A DNA stretch of 64,000 nucleotides from NCBI RefSeq assembly GCF_012849375.1, contig NZ_CP051684.1, positions 372,001-436,000 of the forward strand. The letters run 5' to 3'. This document shows, piece after piece, positions 1 to 5,622 of this stretch; the stretch's first letter is position 1, and each line of letters starts with the position of its first letter. Under the pieces are notes generated by a model. It worked only from the letters and a program-made list of their open reading frames with translations, was not told the origin of the DNA and ran no database searches. This DNA is from Duganella dendranthematis. GTDB lineage: Bacteria > Pseudomonadota > Gammaproteobacteria > Burkholderiales > Burkholderiaceae_D. Both the position numbers and the translations under genes were made by a program.

Positions 1-715
1 AGAGCTCGGCAAACGATATCGGATCGCCCGCCACCACTTCCGGCGCCAGCGCATCCAGATAAGTGGCGCGATCGTCCGGGCTGCGCCATTCGTCGGGATA
101 CAGGTTGATCTTGGCCAGCCCTGATTCGCCCATGGTCGGCGTGACCGACACGTAGGTGAAGCAGCGCTTCTGGTAACCCAGCAGCACCACCCCCACCTGC
201 CCTGCGCCATGCGTCAGCTCCACGCCAAAGCGGCGCATGGCGCGCTTGTGGAACGCCAGATAACGCGCCGCCACCACCGGATGGGACGCAATCACCAGCG
301 GATGGCCGGTGGTGCCAGTGGTGCGGAAGTTGATCATGCGCGTCAGGTCCGCGCTGTCCGGCACAAAGGCCGCGATGTCGTGCGCAAAGTCGGCACGGCT
401 GACGGTAGGCAGCGTCTCGAAATCGCGCGGCACGGAACCCAGTTGGCGGTAATGCGGCACGCTGGCGAAGGTGTCACGCACAAAGTCCATCAGCCACGCT
501 GGCTTGCCGCCTGCCGGCCAGCCGACGCGGGCGGTGACCACCTCGCGCTCGAAGTGGCGTACCTCCTCCACCTCATGCGCCAGCAGTTTGTTGCCGCTTT
601 CGTTCCGGTAGGCCGGCGCCGCCGGATGCTCGCGCAGGAAGGCCAGCATCGCGCTGCCGGCGGCGCTCAGCGTGGGAAAGCGTTCGCGCTCTGCGTCTGC
701 CTGCGCCACACTCAT
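1..715 (-). CDS. PaaK-like adenylate-forming enzyme (AMP-binding), C-terminus beyond the window
   Basis: The frame starts with ATG at 715 and runs off the left edge, leaving about 238 residues. Around residue 110 it carries FRTTGTTGHPL, the Ser/Thr-Gly-rich phosphate-binding loop of adenylate-forming enzymes. The surrounding sequence resembles the phenylacetate-CoA ligase (PaaK) branch, which activates a carboxylate as an acyl-AMP and usually passes it to CoA or a carrier. The start overlaps the stop of the upstream gene in an ATGA, so it is translationally coupled as the last visible member of the five-gene operon starting at 5622. The substrate cannot be told, because the C-terminal domain and much of the acyl pocket lie outside the window. 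Being coupled to a MoxR/VWA pair is unusual for a ligase. Confidence 0.75.
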   Translation of the reverse strand, partial: MSVAQADAERERFPTLSAAGSAMLAFLREHPAAPAYRNESGNKLLAHEVEEVRHFEREVVTARVGWPAGGKPAWLMDFVRDTFASVPHYRQLGSVPRDFETLPTVSRADFAHDIAAFVPDSADLTRMINFRTTGTTGHPLVIASHPVVAARYLAFHKRAMRRFGVELTHGAGQVGVVLLGYQKRCFTYVSVTPTMGESGLAKINLYPDEWRSPDDRATYLDALAPEVVAGDPISFAEL

Positions 716-1305
716 TCGCGCGACCATTTGTCGGCGGATTCCTCGGCCGCCTTGCGTGCCAGCGCGGCACGAATGTCGGCGGCGCGCTGTTCGGCCACGC
801 GGCTGGCCTCCAGCAGTCGCTTGCGCTCAACGCCGCTGATGCGGGACAGGCGGTCGGTAGCTTGCGCCAGGGTTTCGCCATCGGGCCGGTAGTCCAGCCG
901 CGCCAGCGTTACCCGTACCAGTTCTTCGCGGCGGTCCGGGTCTTCGACGAATTGATGGGCGCCGCCGGCTTGCGCCAGCTCAGTCACCACGCTTCCCAAC
1001 AAATGCAGCACCTGGCTCTGTGGCGGCGCGGCGGCGACAAACCAGTCATCGGCCAGCAGCCACAGGGCAATCATCACCAACGCCAGGCGATTGCGGTCGC
1101 GCCGTACGTCTGCATCGGCGGCGCTGAAATGCTCCAGCGCCGCCAGCGAGGCGCGTTGTCCGTGCAGCGCGAGGACATCGTTCACCAGCGCCGCGACATG
1201 CACGGTGCCGGTCTTGCCGATGCGCGGTTCGGCCAGGAATTCGGCCGGCGTTTCGGCCAGCCGGTGCAGCAGGATTTCGAGGGCGGGGCCGGATTTTTCC
1301 ATCAT
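712..1305 (-). CDS. Hypothetical protein (197 aa) in the MoxR-VWA operon
   Basis: I do not recognise the family. The 197-residue protein is helical-looking and soluble, with no signal peptide. It has one moderately hydrophobic stretch near residues 75-95 (LALVMIALWLLADDWFV) and a charged, Ala/Arg/Glu-rich C-terminal 50 residues that could form a coiled coil. The start at 1305 sits in an ATGA overlap with the VWA gene stop, and its own stop overlaps the start of the PaaK-like ligase the same way. Its only functional clue is therefore the operon. It may be an adaptor or scaffold between the ATPase/VWA pair and the ligase; that is inference. Confidence 0.7.
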   Translation of the reverse strand: MMEKSGPALEILLHRLAETPAEFLAEPRIGKTGTVHVAALVNDVLALHGQRASLAALEHFSAADADVRRDRNRLALVMIALWLLADDWFVAAAPPQSQVLHLLGSVVTELAQAGGAHQFVEDPDRREELVRVTLARLDYRPDGETLAQATDRLSRISGVERKRLLEASRVAEQRAADIRAALARKAAEESADKWSRE

Positions 1306-3065
1306 GGGTGCTCTTTCTGCGGCGCGCTGTTTGGGGCGTAGTGGCGCCGGCTGAAGGCGCGCGCGAATTCTACCAAGTCTTCAAACTTCGCAATCGCATG
1401 GATCTGCCAATCCTGCTCGCTGCGTGCGCGCTTCAGATCCTTGTAGGCACGCTGATACCAAGAAGGTTCACCTTGCGCCCAATCGGTGGGGATATTGAGC
1501 GCCATGGTGCCGCCGGCGTCGCCGTTCTTGAGCGCAGTGGCGGCGATGCTCCAGCCGTCGTTGCCGCGTTCATCCTGGTCAAACATGGTAGTGATGCCAT
1601 CGTCCGAAATCATCAGGATGTGCGTGCGGCACGCGCGTTTGCTTTTGAAGGTGTCGCGCAATTTGTGAATCGGGAAGCAGGTGGCGCCGCCGTAAAAGCC
1701 AGTCAGGATGCCCAGCACCTCGTCTTCGTTGCGCGTAAAGCCGTCGGTCGACATGAACTGGTTTTTGCCGCTCCACAGCGTAACCTGCACGCGGGAGCCA
1801 GCACGCAGCGCGGACAAGCCAATGATGGCGCCGGCCAGCGCAAGATACGATGTGCGCTGGCGCGGATCGGGCATCGAGCCGGAGCTGTCGACGTACATGT
1901 CCAGGTCTATCGGCATCGGCTTGGGTGGCCGCACGCCATCCGGTCCATAGCGACGCTGTACGGTGGTGATGCCGGGGATCGGGCGCGGGCTCTGGATCAC
2001 GCTTTGCAGCCAGTCGATCTGTTCCAGCGGGTCGCCGATCTGCCACGCTTCCACACCTTCCAGTTGCAGCCGGTCGGTTGAAGGCGCAGGCATCTTGGGA
2101 AAGGAGATCAGGTGCGGCAAGGCGCGTTCACGATAATAACGGATCGCGATTTGCTCTTCACTCAGTTTGACGCCGCTGGCCTTGAGGATTTCGCCGTACT
2201 CGAATGGCTCGCGGGTCTGGCCGCCCTGCTGGTCGGCGCCGGCTTCCTGCTGTGTCTCATTTTCCAGCCCGGAGATGCGCGGGTCGTGCACCGGATGGAT
2301 GGCCGGCTCCAGTTCTCCCGGCTCGATTTGCTGGCCGCCGGCGGGCTCACAACCTTCGGCCGCATCGCGGGTGTCGAACATGCGGCTGAATTCTTGCGCC
2401 TGGTCCTGCCCTTCCACCAGATACGGCAGCAGCAGCGTGGCAAACCGGCCGGCGCCGTCCATCCAGTCCCTCGCATAGACGCGGATCAGGCGCGCACCGA
2501 GCCAGGCGTCGGTATCGATCGCATCATCGGCGGCGCCGCCGCCCAGGTCTCCCCTGGGCAGCTTCCACAGCTCTTCGTAGATGCGCATATAAAGCAGCCA
2601 TACCTTGCTGTGATTCGTAAGCTGGTGATGCGCTTGCAGCCGCCGGTAGATGTCGGCCATGCGCAGGCCGGCCTGGCGCTGCAAACGGTCATTGATGTAC
2701 AGGTCCGTGTACAGATTGCCGACCATGGGCGCATGCGCTTCCAGCGTGGGCAAGGCGCGGCGCAAGCGCGCCACCAACCGGAACTGGTCGGCAGCGGTGG
2801 CCGGCGCCAGGATGTGGTGGCCAATTTCGTGCGCGAGAATTTCCACCGCATAGTCCTGCAGTCCCAGCTCCCGCACCGATTGAAGGTCGACCACCACACT
2901 CTGATCGCGCAGGCGGATCATGGCAAAGCTGCCTTGCAAGCCTTCTCTGGCCGCTTCCATCGTGGTCTGGCACAGGCGCGCGTCACGCAGGCGCGTGAAT
3001 CGGCTCCACGCGGCAAGCGCTGGCTCCCACGCGGCGCGCCATTGTTCCAGCAGCGGCGTATTCAT
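1302..3065 (-). CDS. VWA-domain protein with N-terminal zincin-like (HEIGHH) domain
   Basis: A 587-residue protein with two recognisable parts. Near the N-terminus, HEIGHH at residues 79-84 and NLYTDLYIND at 117-126 match the putative metallopeptidase domain of the DUF2201 type. The C-terminal third is a von Willebrand factor A domain with a complete metal-ion-dependent adhesion site: DSSGS at 393-397, the Thr in GGATC at 459-463 and the Asp in SDDG at 487-490. VWA proteins of this type work as partners of MoxR AAA+ ATPases, and one is encoded two genes upstream here. The middle (about 235-290) is acidic and Gln-rich and probably a linker. Start and stop both lie in 4-nt ATGA overlaps. Whether the zincin part is catalytically active is unknown. 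Confidence 0.85.
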   Translation of the reverse strand: MNTPLLEQWRAAWEPALAAWSRFTRLRDARLCQTTMEAAREGLQGSFAMIRLRDQSVVVDLQSVRELGLQDYAVEILAHEIGHHILAPATAADQFRLVARLRRALPTLEAHAPMVGNLYTDLYINDRLQRQAGLRMADIYRRLQAHHQLTNHSKVWLLYMRIYEELWKLPRGDLGGGAADDAIDTDAWLGARLIRVYARDWMDGAGRFATLLLPYLVEGQDQAQEFSRMFDTRDAAEGCEPAGGQQIEPGELEPAIHPVHDPRISGLENETQQEAGADQQGGQTREPFEYGEILKASGVKLSEEQIAIRYYRERALPHLISFPKMPAPSTDRLQLEGVEAWQIGDPLEQIDWLQSVIQSPRPIPGITTVQRRYGPDGVRPPKPMPIDLDMYVDSSGSMPDPRQRTSYLALAGAIIGLSALRAGSRVQVTLWSGKNQFMSTDGFTRNEDEVLGILTGFYGGATCFPIHKLRDTFKSKRACRTHILMISDDGITTMFDQDERGNDGWSIAATALKNGDAGGTMALNIPTDWAQGEPSWYQRAYKDLKRARSEQDWQIHAIAKFEDLVEFARAFSRRHYAPNSAPQKEHP

Positions 3066-4042
3066 CGCAGCGGCAGCACGCGAATGGCGTGACTATAAGG
3101 TGAAGTAATCGCGGCGGCATGGGCATTGCACACCACTTTGAGCCCCTCGCCCGGCAAGTCGAGCGGCGTGCTGCGGCCGTTCAGAATGACCTGCTGGCCG
3201 GCGATGCTGATATTGGCATCGGTGGCGGCCTGCGGATGGGCATATTCTTCCGCCGTCGCCGGATGCAGCACGGCGCCGCAAGCGTCAGCCACCAGCAAGG
3301 CGTGGCGTTCGCCGCTGCGCACCCAGAAGCCCTGCTGCGCCGGCCGCACTTCCGGCGGCGCGCTAAATTCGCCGCCGAAACCGGTGAAGCTGCCGATCTC
3401 GATGCCGGCCGCCGCGCGCCGGCGCACCGCAGCCTCCGGCGTCCACCATGGATCACGCAGCAAGGCTTCACGCACGGCCGGCCACTCGCCCTCCGTCGCG
3501 CCAAAGGCGGCCAGCGCCAGCGTCGCCGGCAACTGCTCCGCCGCAGCGATGGCGCCCTGGCGAAAATGCGCCATACCGGCGCGCCAGGCGCAGATCTGCC
3601 CGACAACGCCCACCTGCTGTAGCGTATCGACCTGCGGCGCCAGTTGCGTCATCCAGGCCAGCCATTCCGCCACCCGCGCGCCACGCACCTTTTGCATGTG
3701 CAGCGCGGCGTTGGTCAGCATGCCCAGTGTAGCGGCGGGCTGCTGCGCCAGCAGCGCGGCGTATTGCGGCGCCACCTCACTCCATACCTGACGCGCCAGC
3801 GCGCCACCGTGATTGTGCGCCGTCAGATCCAGGGCCAGGTCGAATACCGCCAGCGCCACCGGGCCAGCACGATCCGGCGCGGACGCCGCAACCGCGCCGA
3901 CCACCGCGTCCGCCGCTGTCGCCAGGAAGCTGCCAAAGGCCTCGGCATCAAAGCCGGGATAGCGGCGCCGCGCCTCGGCCACGCGCCGGTTGAAGCCTGG
4001 GCGGCCAGCGGCCAGCAGGCTGGCGAATGGCGCGGAGATCAT
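3062..4042 (-). CDS. Hypothetical protein (326 aa) between MoxR and VWA genes
   Basis: No known domain is apparent. The protein is Ala-rich and helical with no membrane span or signal peptide. I chose ATG 4042 (protein begins MISAPFASLL) rather than the in-frame start at 4060 because 4042 makes the same ATGA overlap with the MoxR stop that every other junction of this operon shows. Its stop overlaps the VWA start by 4 nt. Position between the ATPase and the VWA gene suggests a third subunit of the same machine. The C-terminal part is beta-rich with several Gly/Pro turns and might be a separate small domain. Function unknown. Confidence 0.75.
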   Translation of the reverse strand: MISAPFASLLAAGRPGFNRRVAEARRRYPGFDAEAFGSFLATAADAVVGAVAASAPDRAGPVALAVFDLALDLTAHNHGGALARQVWSEVAPQYAALLAQQPAATLGMLTNAALHMQKVRGARVAEWLAWMTQLAPQVDTLQQVGVVGQICAWRAGMAHFRQGAIAAAEQLPATLALAAFGATEGEWPAVREALLRDPWWTPEAAVRRRAAAGIEIGSFTGFGGEFSAPPEVRPAQQGFWVRSGERHALLVADACGAVLHPATAEEYAHPQAATDANISIAGQQVILNGRSTPLDLPGEGLKVVCNAHAAAITSPYSHAIRVLPLR

Positions 4043-5622
4043 GATTGCGAGCGTACCCACACCAGGTAGTTGGTGTAGCGCTGGTGCAGATATTTCAGCT
4101 TGAGCAGGTCGTCGTACAGATGCCCATACAGCTTGCGGCCCTTGATCTGCTCACTGACATGGCGCTCGATCTTGTTGAGGCGCGCCAGCACATCGCGTTC
4201 GCTCAGGCCATCCAGGCCCGCTTCGAACTGCGCCGACAGCTCGCCCACCGGATCATGCTGGTCGAGGTCGAGGCGGTCGTAGTCGGCGTTGGACAGATCG
4301 AACAAGCGGCGCAGCCAGCTGATACGGTCGGTGCGATAGGCGGCATTTTCCGGCAGGCCGAAGAACGGCGCGTCGAGGTCCGGCTGCAGCTTATCGTGCA
4401 GGACGAACGGCAGCACCTGACGCACATCATCCAGTTCGATTTCGCCGTTACCGCGGAAGTAAGCCAGCGCCTTCGCGTAGATCAATAAGGTCATCAGATT
4501 GCGCACCGAGATGCCGTTGCGGGTCTGGCAGCCCAGATCCTTGAGGCGGTCACGCCCGCTGTCGGCGGCGATCACCTGGTCCCAATCGAAGCCGGACAGG
4601 CGCGCGGTGTCCTTGGTCATGTATTCAAACTGGCCGCCGGCGGTTTCCAGCAGCTCGAACTGGCTGGTGAAGAATTCGAGCCGGCGACGCAGCGGCGGCG
4701 GCACCACCACGGCGCGGATTTCCTCCACCATGCGGTCCACTTCTTCCGGCGTGAAGATGATCTCCGCCGGCACCAGTTCCTCCGGCTTGAGGTTTTCCTC
4801 GATGCGCATCAGCAGCTCACCGAGGAAGCGCGGATTGAACGCCAGCGCCTGCACGATCACGTCGATACGGTCGCGCAGCGCTTCGATCACCTCATACGTG
4901 CCGCCGCCCTGATCGTCGTTGGCGGTCAGGTACCAGGCCGAATCCGGGCATTCGTAAATGTGGTTCAGCACTTCGGCGTAGTTATCGCCCATCAGCGTCA
5001 GCAGCGCGCTCTGGGTGCGCGGCGGGATGCGGTTGTATTCGTCGATGATCTTGACCCGCATGCCGAGCCACGCACGCCAGGCGATGCGGATGTCGTCCAT
5101 GTTCTGCGCGTTGACCAGGTCCGCCGGCAGCGGATTGCCCAGCAGGTCGGCGATCGTCATCTGCGGATGGCCGTGCTGCATGGCGCGCTTGACCTGCTTG
5201 ACGCTGGCGCCGGACAGTACGCCCATCAAGATCGCGCTGGCGGTCTTGCCGCGTCCCGGCCCGCCGACAAACAGGCATTTGCGGCGGGTGGCGAAGGTCA
5301 GCAGCGGCAGCAGCACAAAGCTGGAATAACTTTGCGCCGACGGCAGATTCAAGCTGCGCTTGCTGTCGCCCACCGCGTACGATTGCGCCGGTCCGCGGTT
5401 GTATTCGATATCGTAATGCGGGCTGATGATGGCGTTGTTGACGATCCAGAAGTACGCCTGCCGCAGCTTTTCGTCCAGCGGCTGCGCTGTTACGCCCTCG
5501 CCTTGCGCGACGTTCAACGGTCCCTGGTACAAGTCGGCAACGTCGAACTGGCGCGGCTTGGGCGGCGCATTGGGATTGGTGGGCGCCTTGGAGACGCGCT
5601 GGAACAGATTGAAAGGCGGCAT
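4039..5622 (-). CDS. MoxR-family AAA+ ATPase
   Basis: A 527-residue AAA+ protein. Walker A is GGPGRGKT at residues 120-127, Walker B is KIIDEYNRIP at 191-200 (MoxR proteins usually have DEINR), sensor 1 is YLTANDD at 231-237, and EALRDRIDV at 247-255 follows. A long C-terminal extension of over 200 residues follows the AAA core. MoxR ATPases act as chaperone-like remodelling or metal-insertion motors with a VWA partner, here encoded two genes downstream. It is the first gene of the operon, and the stop overlaps the next start (ATGA). A weak -10-like TATACT lies on the minus strand at 5659-5664, but I see no convincing -35. The client of the complex is unknown. Confidence 0.9.
   Translation of the reverse strand: MPPFNLFQRVSKAPTNPNAPPKPRQFDVADLYQGPLNVAQGEGVTAQPLDEKLRQAYFWIVNNAIISPHYDIEYNRGPAQSYAVGDSKRSLNLPSAQSYSSFVLLPLLTFATRRKCLFVGGPGRGKTASAILMGVLSGASVKQVKRAMQHGHPQMTIADLLGNPLPADLVNAQNMDDIRIAWRAWLGMRVKIIDEYNRIPPRTQSALLTLMGDNYAEVLNHIYECPDSAWYLTANDDQGGGTYEVIEALRDRIDVIVQALAFNPRFLGELLMRIEENLKPEELVPAEIIFTPEEVDRMVEEIRAVVVPPPLRRRLEFFTSQFELLETAGGQFEYMTKDTARLSGFDWDQVIAADSGRDRLKDLGCQTRNGISVRNLMTLLIYAKALAYFRGNGEIELDDVRQVLPFVLHDKLQPDLDAPFFGLPENAAYRTDRISWLRRLFDLSNADYDRLDLDQHDPVGELSAQFEAGLDGLSERDVLARLNKIERHVSEQIKGRKLYGHLYDDLLKLKYLHQRYTNYLVWVRSQS

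Follow-up and report, generated by a model that had tools for sequence, protein, structure and literature searches.

A conserved MoxR/VWA gene system of Duganella dendranthematis tied in evolution to nicotinamide-riboside salvage

Introduction

Which partners work with the MoxR-class AAA+ ATPase and the von Willebrand factor A (VWA) protein encoded at the left end of a 64,000-nucleotide stretch of the Duganella dendranthematis genome, and what might the whole assembly be for? MoxR/VWA machines are widespread and, to our knowledge, few have a known target. Besides NorQ/NorD and CbbQ/CbbO, CoxD/CoxE and RavA/ViaA are further remodelling pairs of this kind. Within the sequence window (the whole stretch analysed, G000:C1:372001-436000 of a 6.53-Mb single-contig genome), positions 1-5622 of the minus strand hold five closely packed genes, A, B, C, D and the start of E, which the original prediction had taken for a five-gene operon joined by four ATGA overlaps. 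Here we show that genes A-F are one conserved gene system with the core A-B-C-D-E, and that the system is tied in evolution to the salvage of nicotinamide riboside (NR) into nicotinamide adenine dinucleotide (NAD) through the NadR-like gene F, often accompanied in relatives by an importer gene, T.

Results

Six genes in one operon

The genes and their junctions are as follows.

Gene A, 4039..5622, minus strand: MoxR-class AAA+ ATPase, 527 amino acids (aa).
Gene B, 3062..4042, minus strand: protein of 326 aa, no recognised family.
Gene C, 1302..3065, minus strand: protein of 587 aa with an HExxHH (zincin-like) N-terminal part and a C-terminal VWA domain.
Gene D, 712..1305, minus strand: protein of 197 aa, no recognised family.
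Gene E, first part, 1..715, minus strand, running leftwards out of the window: PaaK-like adenylate-forming enzyme; complete gene L003:11357-12715, 452 aa.
Gene F, L003:10314-11360 (G000:C1:370314-371360), left of the window, after E: NadR-like protein, 348 aa.
A/B overlap, 4039..4042, minus strand: reads ATGA.
B/C overlap, 3062..3065, minus strand: reads ATGA.
C/D overlap, 1302..1305, minus strand: reads ATGA.
D/E overlap, 712..715, minus strand: reads ATGA.
E/F overlap, L003:11357-11360, outside the window: fifth ATGA junction.

The coordinates of the five genes and all four junctions between them were correct on re-reading, but the count of five holds for the window only. Extension of the sequence leftwards gave the complete gene E and then, through another ATGA overlap, the NadR-type gene F, so that the operon has six genes, A-F, and not five. 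To the left of F, the next large open reading frame (ORF) lies on the opposite strand. Four-nucleotide overlaps of this kind are frequent in operons, and those found here suggest co-transcription and translational coupling. A start codon giving such an overlap is available for E/F in 31/32 loci of relatives, for B/C in 72/80 and for D/E in 53/77, for C/D in only 19/52 and for A/B in only 18/63. The stoichiometric production of the proteins that had been proposed from the overlaps cannot be inferred from them, and they vary among relatives.

Conservation of the gene set

Relatives were collected by a GTDB genome scan with an alignment of C, in which the best 80 of 217 relatives were kept with at most 10 kb on each side. 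Gene-content counts use the 67 of these 80 loci whose flanks reach 3 kb or more before C and 5.5 kb or more after it. Across the 67 loci, B is present in all, A, D and E in 66 each, F in 59, the PnuC-type gene T in 32 and a radical-SAM gene, R, in 26, and the order A-B-C-(R)-D-E is kept in 65. Among 145 genomes of the same family, B, C and D each occur in 14, and these are the identical 14, the source genome included; a draw of 398 genomes from the phylum contained C in three, again counting the source genome. Fifteen sister loci, 13 from the same family and two from another family of the class, hold A-F complete in 14 cases, the remaining one being interrupted by a contig end. The linkage of the ligase E and of B and D to the MoxR-VWA pair, on which the original prediction depended, is strongly supported by this co-occurrence (14/145 genomes, 65/67 loci) and is not accidental. 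Across genera, the set has no further constant companion gene.

According to their record titles, the 79 long C sequences come from Pseudomonadota (67), Verrucomicrobiota (6), Acidobacteriota (2) and, with one each, Gemmatimonadota, Thermodesulfobacteriota, Chloroflexota and KSB1, which makes at least six phyla among the best 80 of 217 relatives; many of these are metagenome bins, so mis-binning is possible. The Acidobacteriota pair is nested in a 39-row fork that is otherwise Pseudomonadota (support value 98, quick tree), which speaks for transfer. On the C tree, the minimum numbers of changes are 9 for R, 10 for T and 7 for F.

NadR and PnuC beside the core

The NadR profile matches of F span both domains, the NR kinase and the nicotinamide mononucleotide (NMN) adenylyltransferase. 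The score of 157.9 bits against TIGR01526 lies under the equivalog cut-off of 341.15, which points to a related NadR subfamily, and PF13521 is matched at 112.7 bits, above its cut-off of 27. The relatives of F keep GKFxPLHxGH in 63/67 and a GxESSGK-type motif in 62/67. Each of the 14 system genomes has full-length F at E<1e-120, as do 5 of the 131 other genomes of the family, with one further match at 1.5e-81 in a genome outside the system; some match to F exists in 63/145 family genomes, mostly to the kinase half only. At the eight of 67 loci without F near the core, the genome has a NadR-type match elsewhere in every case, with two domains in seven and the kinase alone in one (L094), and all 15 system genomes tested for a NadR-type match were positive. 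Gene T lies mostly between E and F. The T of L020 is a PnuC by both TIGR01528 (80.2 bits over 42.45) and PF04973 (156.3 over 27.3).

The NadR that adjoins the core in L079, L108, L111 and L112 is only 31-35% identical to F. In the tree, the main F clade (56 rows, support value 99) does not include the NadRs of L079/L108, L111 and L112, which branch off apparently in three places, the exact placement of these distant proteins being unsure on the long branches of the NadR tree. Distant NadR/PnuC pairs adjoin the core in four further arrangements, and the coupling of NadR to the core probably arose more than once.

Six loci with F outside the system (L129-L134) were examined. L131-L133 are plain NAD-salvage loci: nicotinate phosphoribosyltransferase (NAPRTase), NAD synthase and PnuC are encoded in L131 and, by similarity, in L132, and L133 has a nicotinamide phosphoribosyltransferase (NAMPT)-type enzyme, an NMN adenylyltransferase (NMNAT)-Nudix protein, a TonB receptor and PnuC. 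L130 and L134 hold F without PnuC. L129:2504-4445 is an operon relic, with a C-terminal fragment of E, PnuC and F/NadR and with no A-D.

NAD and ADP-ribose genes adjoining some loci

The strongest functional clue lies outside the window, in F, in the T of relatives and in the NAD and ADP-ribose genes that adjoin a few loci. In L050, the operon follows an NrtR gene and is divergent from a NAD cluster of an isochorismatase-like gene (below the Pfam cut-off), NAPRTase, NAD synthase, NMNAT-Nudix and an ADP-ribosylglycohydrolase (ARG). In L066, NAPRTase, an NMNAT-Nudix-like gene and an ARG lead into A with a 2-nt gap, with NrtR near. Three ARGs precede A in L084, the last about 25 nt away, and a cREC domain is fused to one of them. 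A Pfam check bore out the names given to the NAD genes. Among 36 system genomes, a sample chosen with those of L050, L066 and L084 included, we counted 31 ARGs, five of them in operon flanks and all five in the genomes of these three loci; about 0.1 would be expected in the flanks by chance (about 20 kb in 5-6 Mb each). L043:4736-7066 encodes a 776-aa protein 317 bp before A, with TCAD9 and a dual-specificity phosphatase (DSP) domain and an isochorismatase-like start below cut-off. A palindrome in the divergent NrtR region of L050 (6471-6495), of which a 15-base stretch is common to L066 (~3321-3334), is perhaps an NrtR operator.

Proteins of the core

The matches of A to Pfam AAA_3 (31 bits, cut-off 27) and AAA_lid_2 (26.8, cut-off 22.7) are above threshold, and Walker A and Walker B are kept in 74/74 relatives. 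In C, VWA_2 scores 16.9 bits, under its cut-off of 27, and the metal-binding MIDAS motif DxSGSM is present in 77/79 relatives and HExxHH in 79/79. Alignment of C with four DUF2201_N sequences gave an hhalign probability of 0.6, and DUF2201_N is not among the Pfam matches of C at E<=1. The C protein is 95% identical to its counterpart in Duganella margarita. Judged by these motifs, A and C have the parts for remodelling work like that of NorQ/NorD. At the limits used, 50,697 phage records contained no match to A or C, and plasmids contained none to C.

Full-length E matches the AMP-binding family PF00501 at 35.7 bits, above the cut-off of 29.9, and its best NCBIfam and Protein Data Bank (PDB) matches are PaaK-like (DVU_1553 family, phenylacetate-CoA ligase). 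E shares the AMP-binding fold with such enzymes but falls far under their equivalog cut-offs (85.9 against 300 for DVU_1553; 40.6 against 646.3 for PaaK TIGR02155). The domain calls of the original prediction were right in outline for MoxR, VWA (below cut-off, MIDAS intact), HExxH and the AMP-binding fold. Its further proposal, target modification or maturation by way of acyl-AMP, describes a possible activity of the complex.

B and D, for which no domain had been recognised before, match no Pfam, NCBIfam or PADLOC family at E<=1. The model of B (predicted local distance difference test score, pLDDT, 96) has a helical part, 1-211, and a beta part, 212-326; that of D (pLDDT 93) is all-helical with a long final helix, 158-196. 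A Foldseek search with both models found no PDB match at E<=0.001. Scoring of 7,995 candidates gave 163 homologues of B at E<=0.001; the 120 listed carry no Pfam domain, the genera named among them being Duganella, Rugamonas, Collimonas and Janthinobacterium. In the libraries searched, neither B nor D has a recognised relative.

An optional radical-SAM enzyme

Gene R, which is SPASM-like, lies mostly between C and D, matches the radical-SAM family PF04055 at 54.2 bits over 29.5, and is present at about four of ten loci. CxxxCxxC and CxDC are kept in 28/28 sequences, and C250, C268, C307 and C310 are invariant in 24 rows, so that both the core motif and auxiliary cysteines are present. Its best PDB match, 5wgg, covers positions 5-312 of 322 and is a radical-SAM domain protein, which we take to be the peptide maturase CteB; among the further PDB matches are peptide maturases, for instance SkfB and PqqE. 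At E<=1e-20, the R profile found all three positive-control genomes and only 2/39 others, L095, whose locus already holds part of R, and L068, which is borderline (5.6e-21). Because the profile matched the controls and so few others, R looks truly optional.

R was also considered as a prokaryotic viperin (pVip) and rejected: the NCBIfam viperin model scores 49.9 against a cut-off of 180 and covers residues 3-124 only, and the PADLOC match covers only residues 3-123.

Variant loci

An extra gene, X (155-163 aa), stands between A and B in 13/80 loci, all titled Janthinobacterium (for example L046:8535-9002), and has no Pfam or NCBIfam family. The Chloroflexi locus L112:14705-16631 has D and E a second time, placed after R and ahead of PnuC and NadR (named by eye from the translations). 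At L095:11819-13144, in a Verrucomicrobiaceae bin, C and the partial R are separated by an ATPase-like gene, and D and E were not found at this locus.

Discussion

What, then, does the set of genes do? We tentatively favour a MoxR-VWA machine for NAD-coupled maturation or repair. According to PMC13036017, NorQ spends ATP on twisting and stretching NorD, its VWA partner, which lets the target take up metal. By analogy, A as an AAA+ motor and C as a VWA adaptor with a zincin-like part would pull a protein target or open it; B and D, found at almost every locus, would serve as adaptors, and E would make an adenylated intermediate. R would add an optional radical modification, and F, with T, would be a dedicated NAD source. 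The target or product might be an enzyme or cofactor that contains NAD, consumes it or is damaged together with it, and a target linked to NAD would account for an operon that brings its own NAD source. In favour are the co-occurrence of B, C and D and the presence of F in those same 14 genomes, the kept gene order, the E/F overlap start, the kept motor and metal-site motifs, the NadR-type match in every system genome tested, the distant NadRs by the core, and the NAD genes at L050, L066 and L084.

Several observations weigh against this reading. The target, the substrate of E and the role of NAD (substrate, cofactor or damaged part) are inference only, the operon has no gene for a target enzyme, and no additional partner was found that keeps company with the set across genera. 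T is absent in 35/67 loci and R in 41/67, and a search of the source genome for R gave nothing at E<=0.001. The PnuC of the source genome that is 57% identical to T lies at 3.04 Mb and not beside recognised NAD genes, and a second locus resembling NR salvage, separate from the operon (L118:5288-9286, at 0.24 Mb), encodes a TonB-type receptor (named by eye), a single-domain NadR-type kinase and PnuC. F itself is close to ordinary salvage NadR, to judge by the plain salvage loci L131-L133 in which relatives of it stand. NAD-island genes occur near only 3/80 loci, and the NrtR-type palindrome of L050/L066 was found before A at none of 73 other loci at p<0.05.

The neighbours at these few loci also bear on a different and somewhat unlikely explanation, a response to stress or conflict set off by loss of NAD or by ADP-ribosylation, in which A/C with B/D would chaperone ADP-ribosylated or damaged proteins, F/T would refill NAD, and E with R would make or undo the modification. 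The system would then be functional kin of the ARG-centred systems of PMC9503650, where Nudix regulators (NrtR, beside WYL), phosphatases and vWA chaperones are described. The likeness consists of ARGs beside the operon in L050, L066 and L084, NrtR near the first two, the cREC fusion in L084 and TCAD9 with the DSP phosphatase upstream in L043; the N-terminal part of R matches pVip models as well. Such neighbours are, however, seen at only 4/80 loci, and ARG is absent from the set in the other 77/80, the only ARG of the source genome lying at 1.6 Mb, far from the operon. In section 31 of PMC9503650, neither MoxR nor NadR is named, nor is a ligase or a radical-SAM enzyme. Moreover, A-F match no PADLOC model, A and C were not met in phages nor C in plasmids at the limits used, and no effector or ADP-ribosyltransferase was seen. 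The vWA-MoxR ternary conflict systems (PMC7159879) likewise combine MoxR and VWA with further partners, one subsystem having a radical-SAM gene, but NAD salvage is not mentioned in the part of that paper that treats them; their known third components and effector domains are not found in A-E by Pfam or PADLOC, TCAD9 occurring only in the neighbour of L043.

It is unlikely that F and T are co-regulated passengers, sharing a promoter with an A-E unrelated to NAD since both are needed under the same condition. The plain salvage loci L131-L133, the relic L129 with PnuC and no A-D, and the eight loci without F nearby would fit such an arrangement, yet the distant NadR/PnuC pairs by the core (L079/L108, L111, L112), the E/F overlap start in 31/32 loci and the NAD genes around three far-apart loci are hard to obtain by hitch-hiking. 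Compared with ordinary PnuC-NadR salvage, T and F belong to the same families, but here they form part of an operon that also encodes an AAA+/VWA machine, and F stays under the NadR equivalog cut-off.

We give little credence to a so far undescribed pathway for making or attaching a group derived from NAD, in which NadR would supply the pyridine nucleotide, E would adenylate it or an acyl partner, R would alter it by radical chemistry in some lineages, and the MoxR/VWA-zincin pair with B and D would open and load an acceptor protein. Protein maturation of this NAD-dependent sort would be new in kind and would extend over at least six bacterial phyla. A peptide- or protein-modifying pathway, with R, as a SPASM-type enzyme, and C, through its zincin-like part, processing an E-activated precursor as in ribosomal-peptide or quinone-cofactor pathways and NAD only a redox partner, is improbable: the PDB matches of R and the invariant HExxHH of C would suit it, but R is missing in most of the 67 loci and in 37/39 genomes searched, and no small ORF common to three genera lies within 1.2 kb on either side.

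Returning to NAD-coupled maturation or repair, the closest known machines are NorQ/NorD and CbbQ/CbbO, which resemble A/C in having a MoxR AAA+ gene next to a VWA gene, the Walker and MIDAS motifs being intact. Unlike their VWA proteins, C has a zincin-like N-terminal part, and the steady partners here are NadR, B, D and the adenylate-forming enzyme, while the operon holds no gene for a target enzyme. The group 2.2 jumbo phages (PMC7824862) encode a MoxR ATPase beside a VWA protein with an N-terminal metallopeptidase domain, like A/C, but the description of the pair there mentions no ligase with it, and A and C match none of the phage records at the limits used.

No paper describing this gene set was found in the open-access literature, and the multi-gene system is real, conserved and, as far as searched, undescribed. 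MoxR/VWA machines are known already; what is new is the tie to NAD salvage, a surprising partner for such a machine. The conserved cross-phylum set links a MoxR/VWA machine to NAD salvage, an adenylating enzyme and an optional radical-SAM enzyme, and it gives two protein families with confident models, B and D, a defined gene context.

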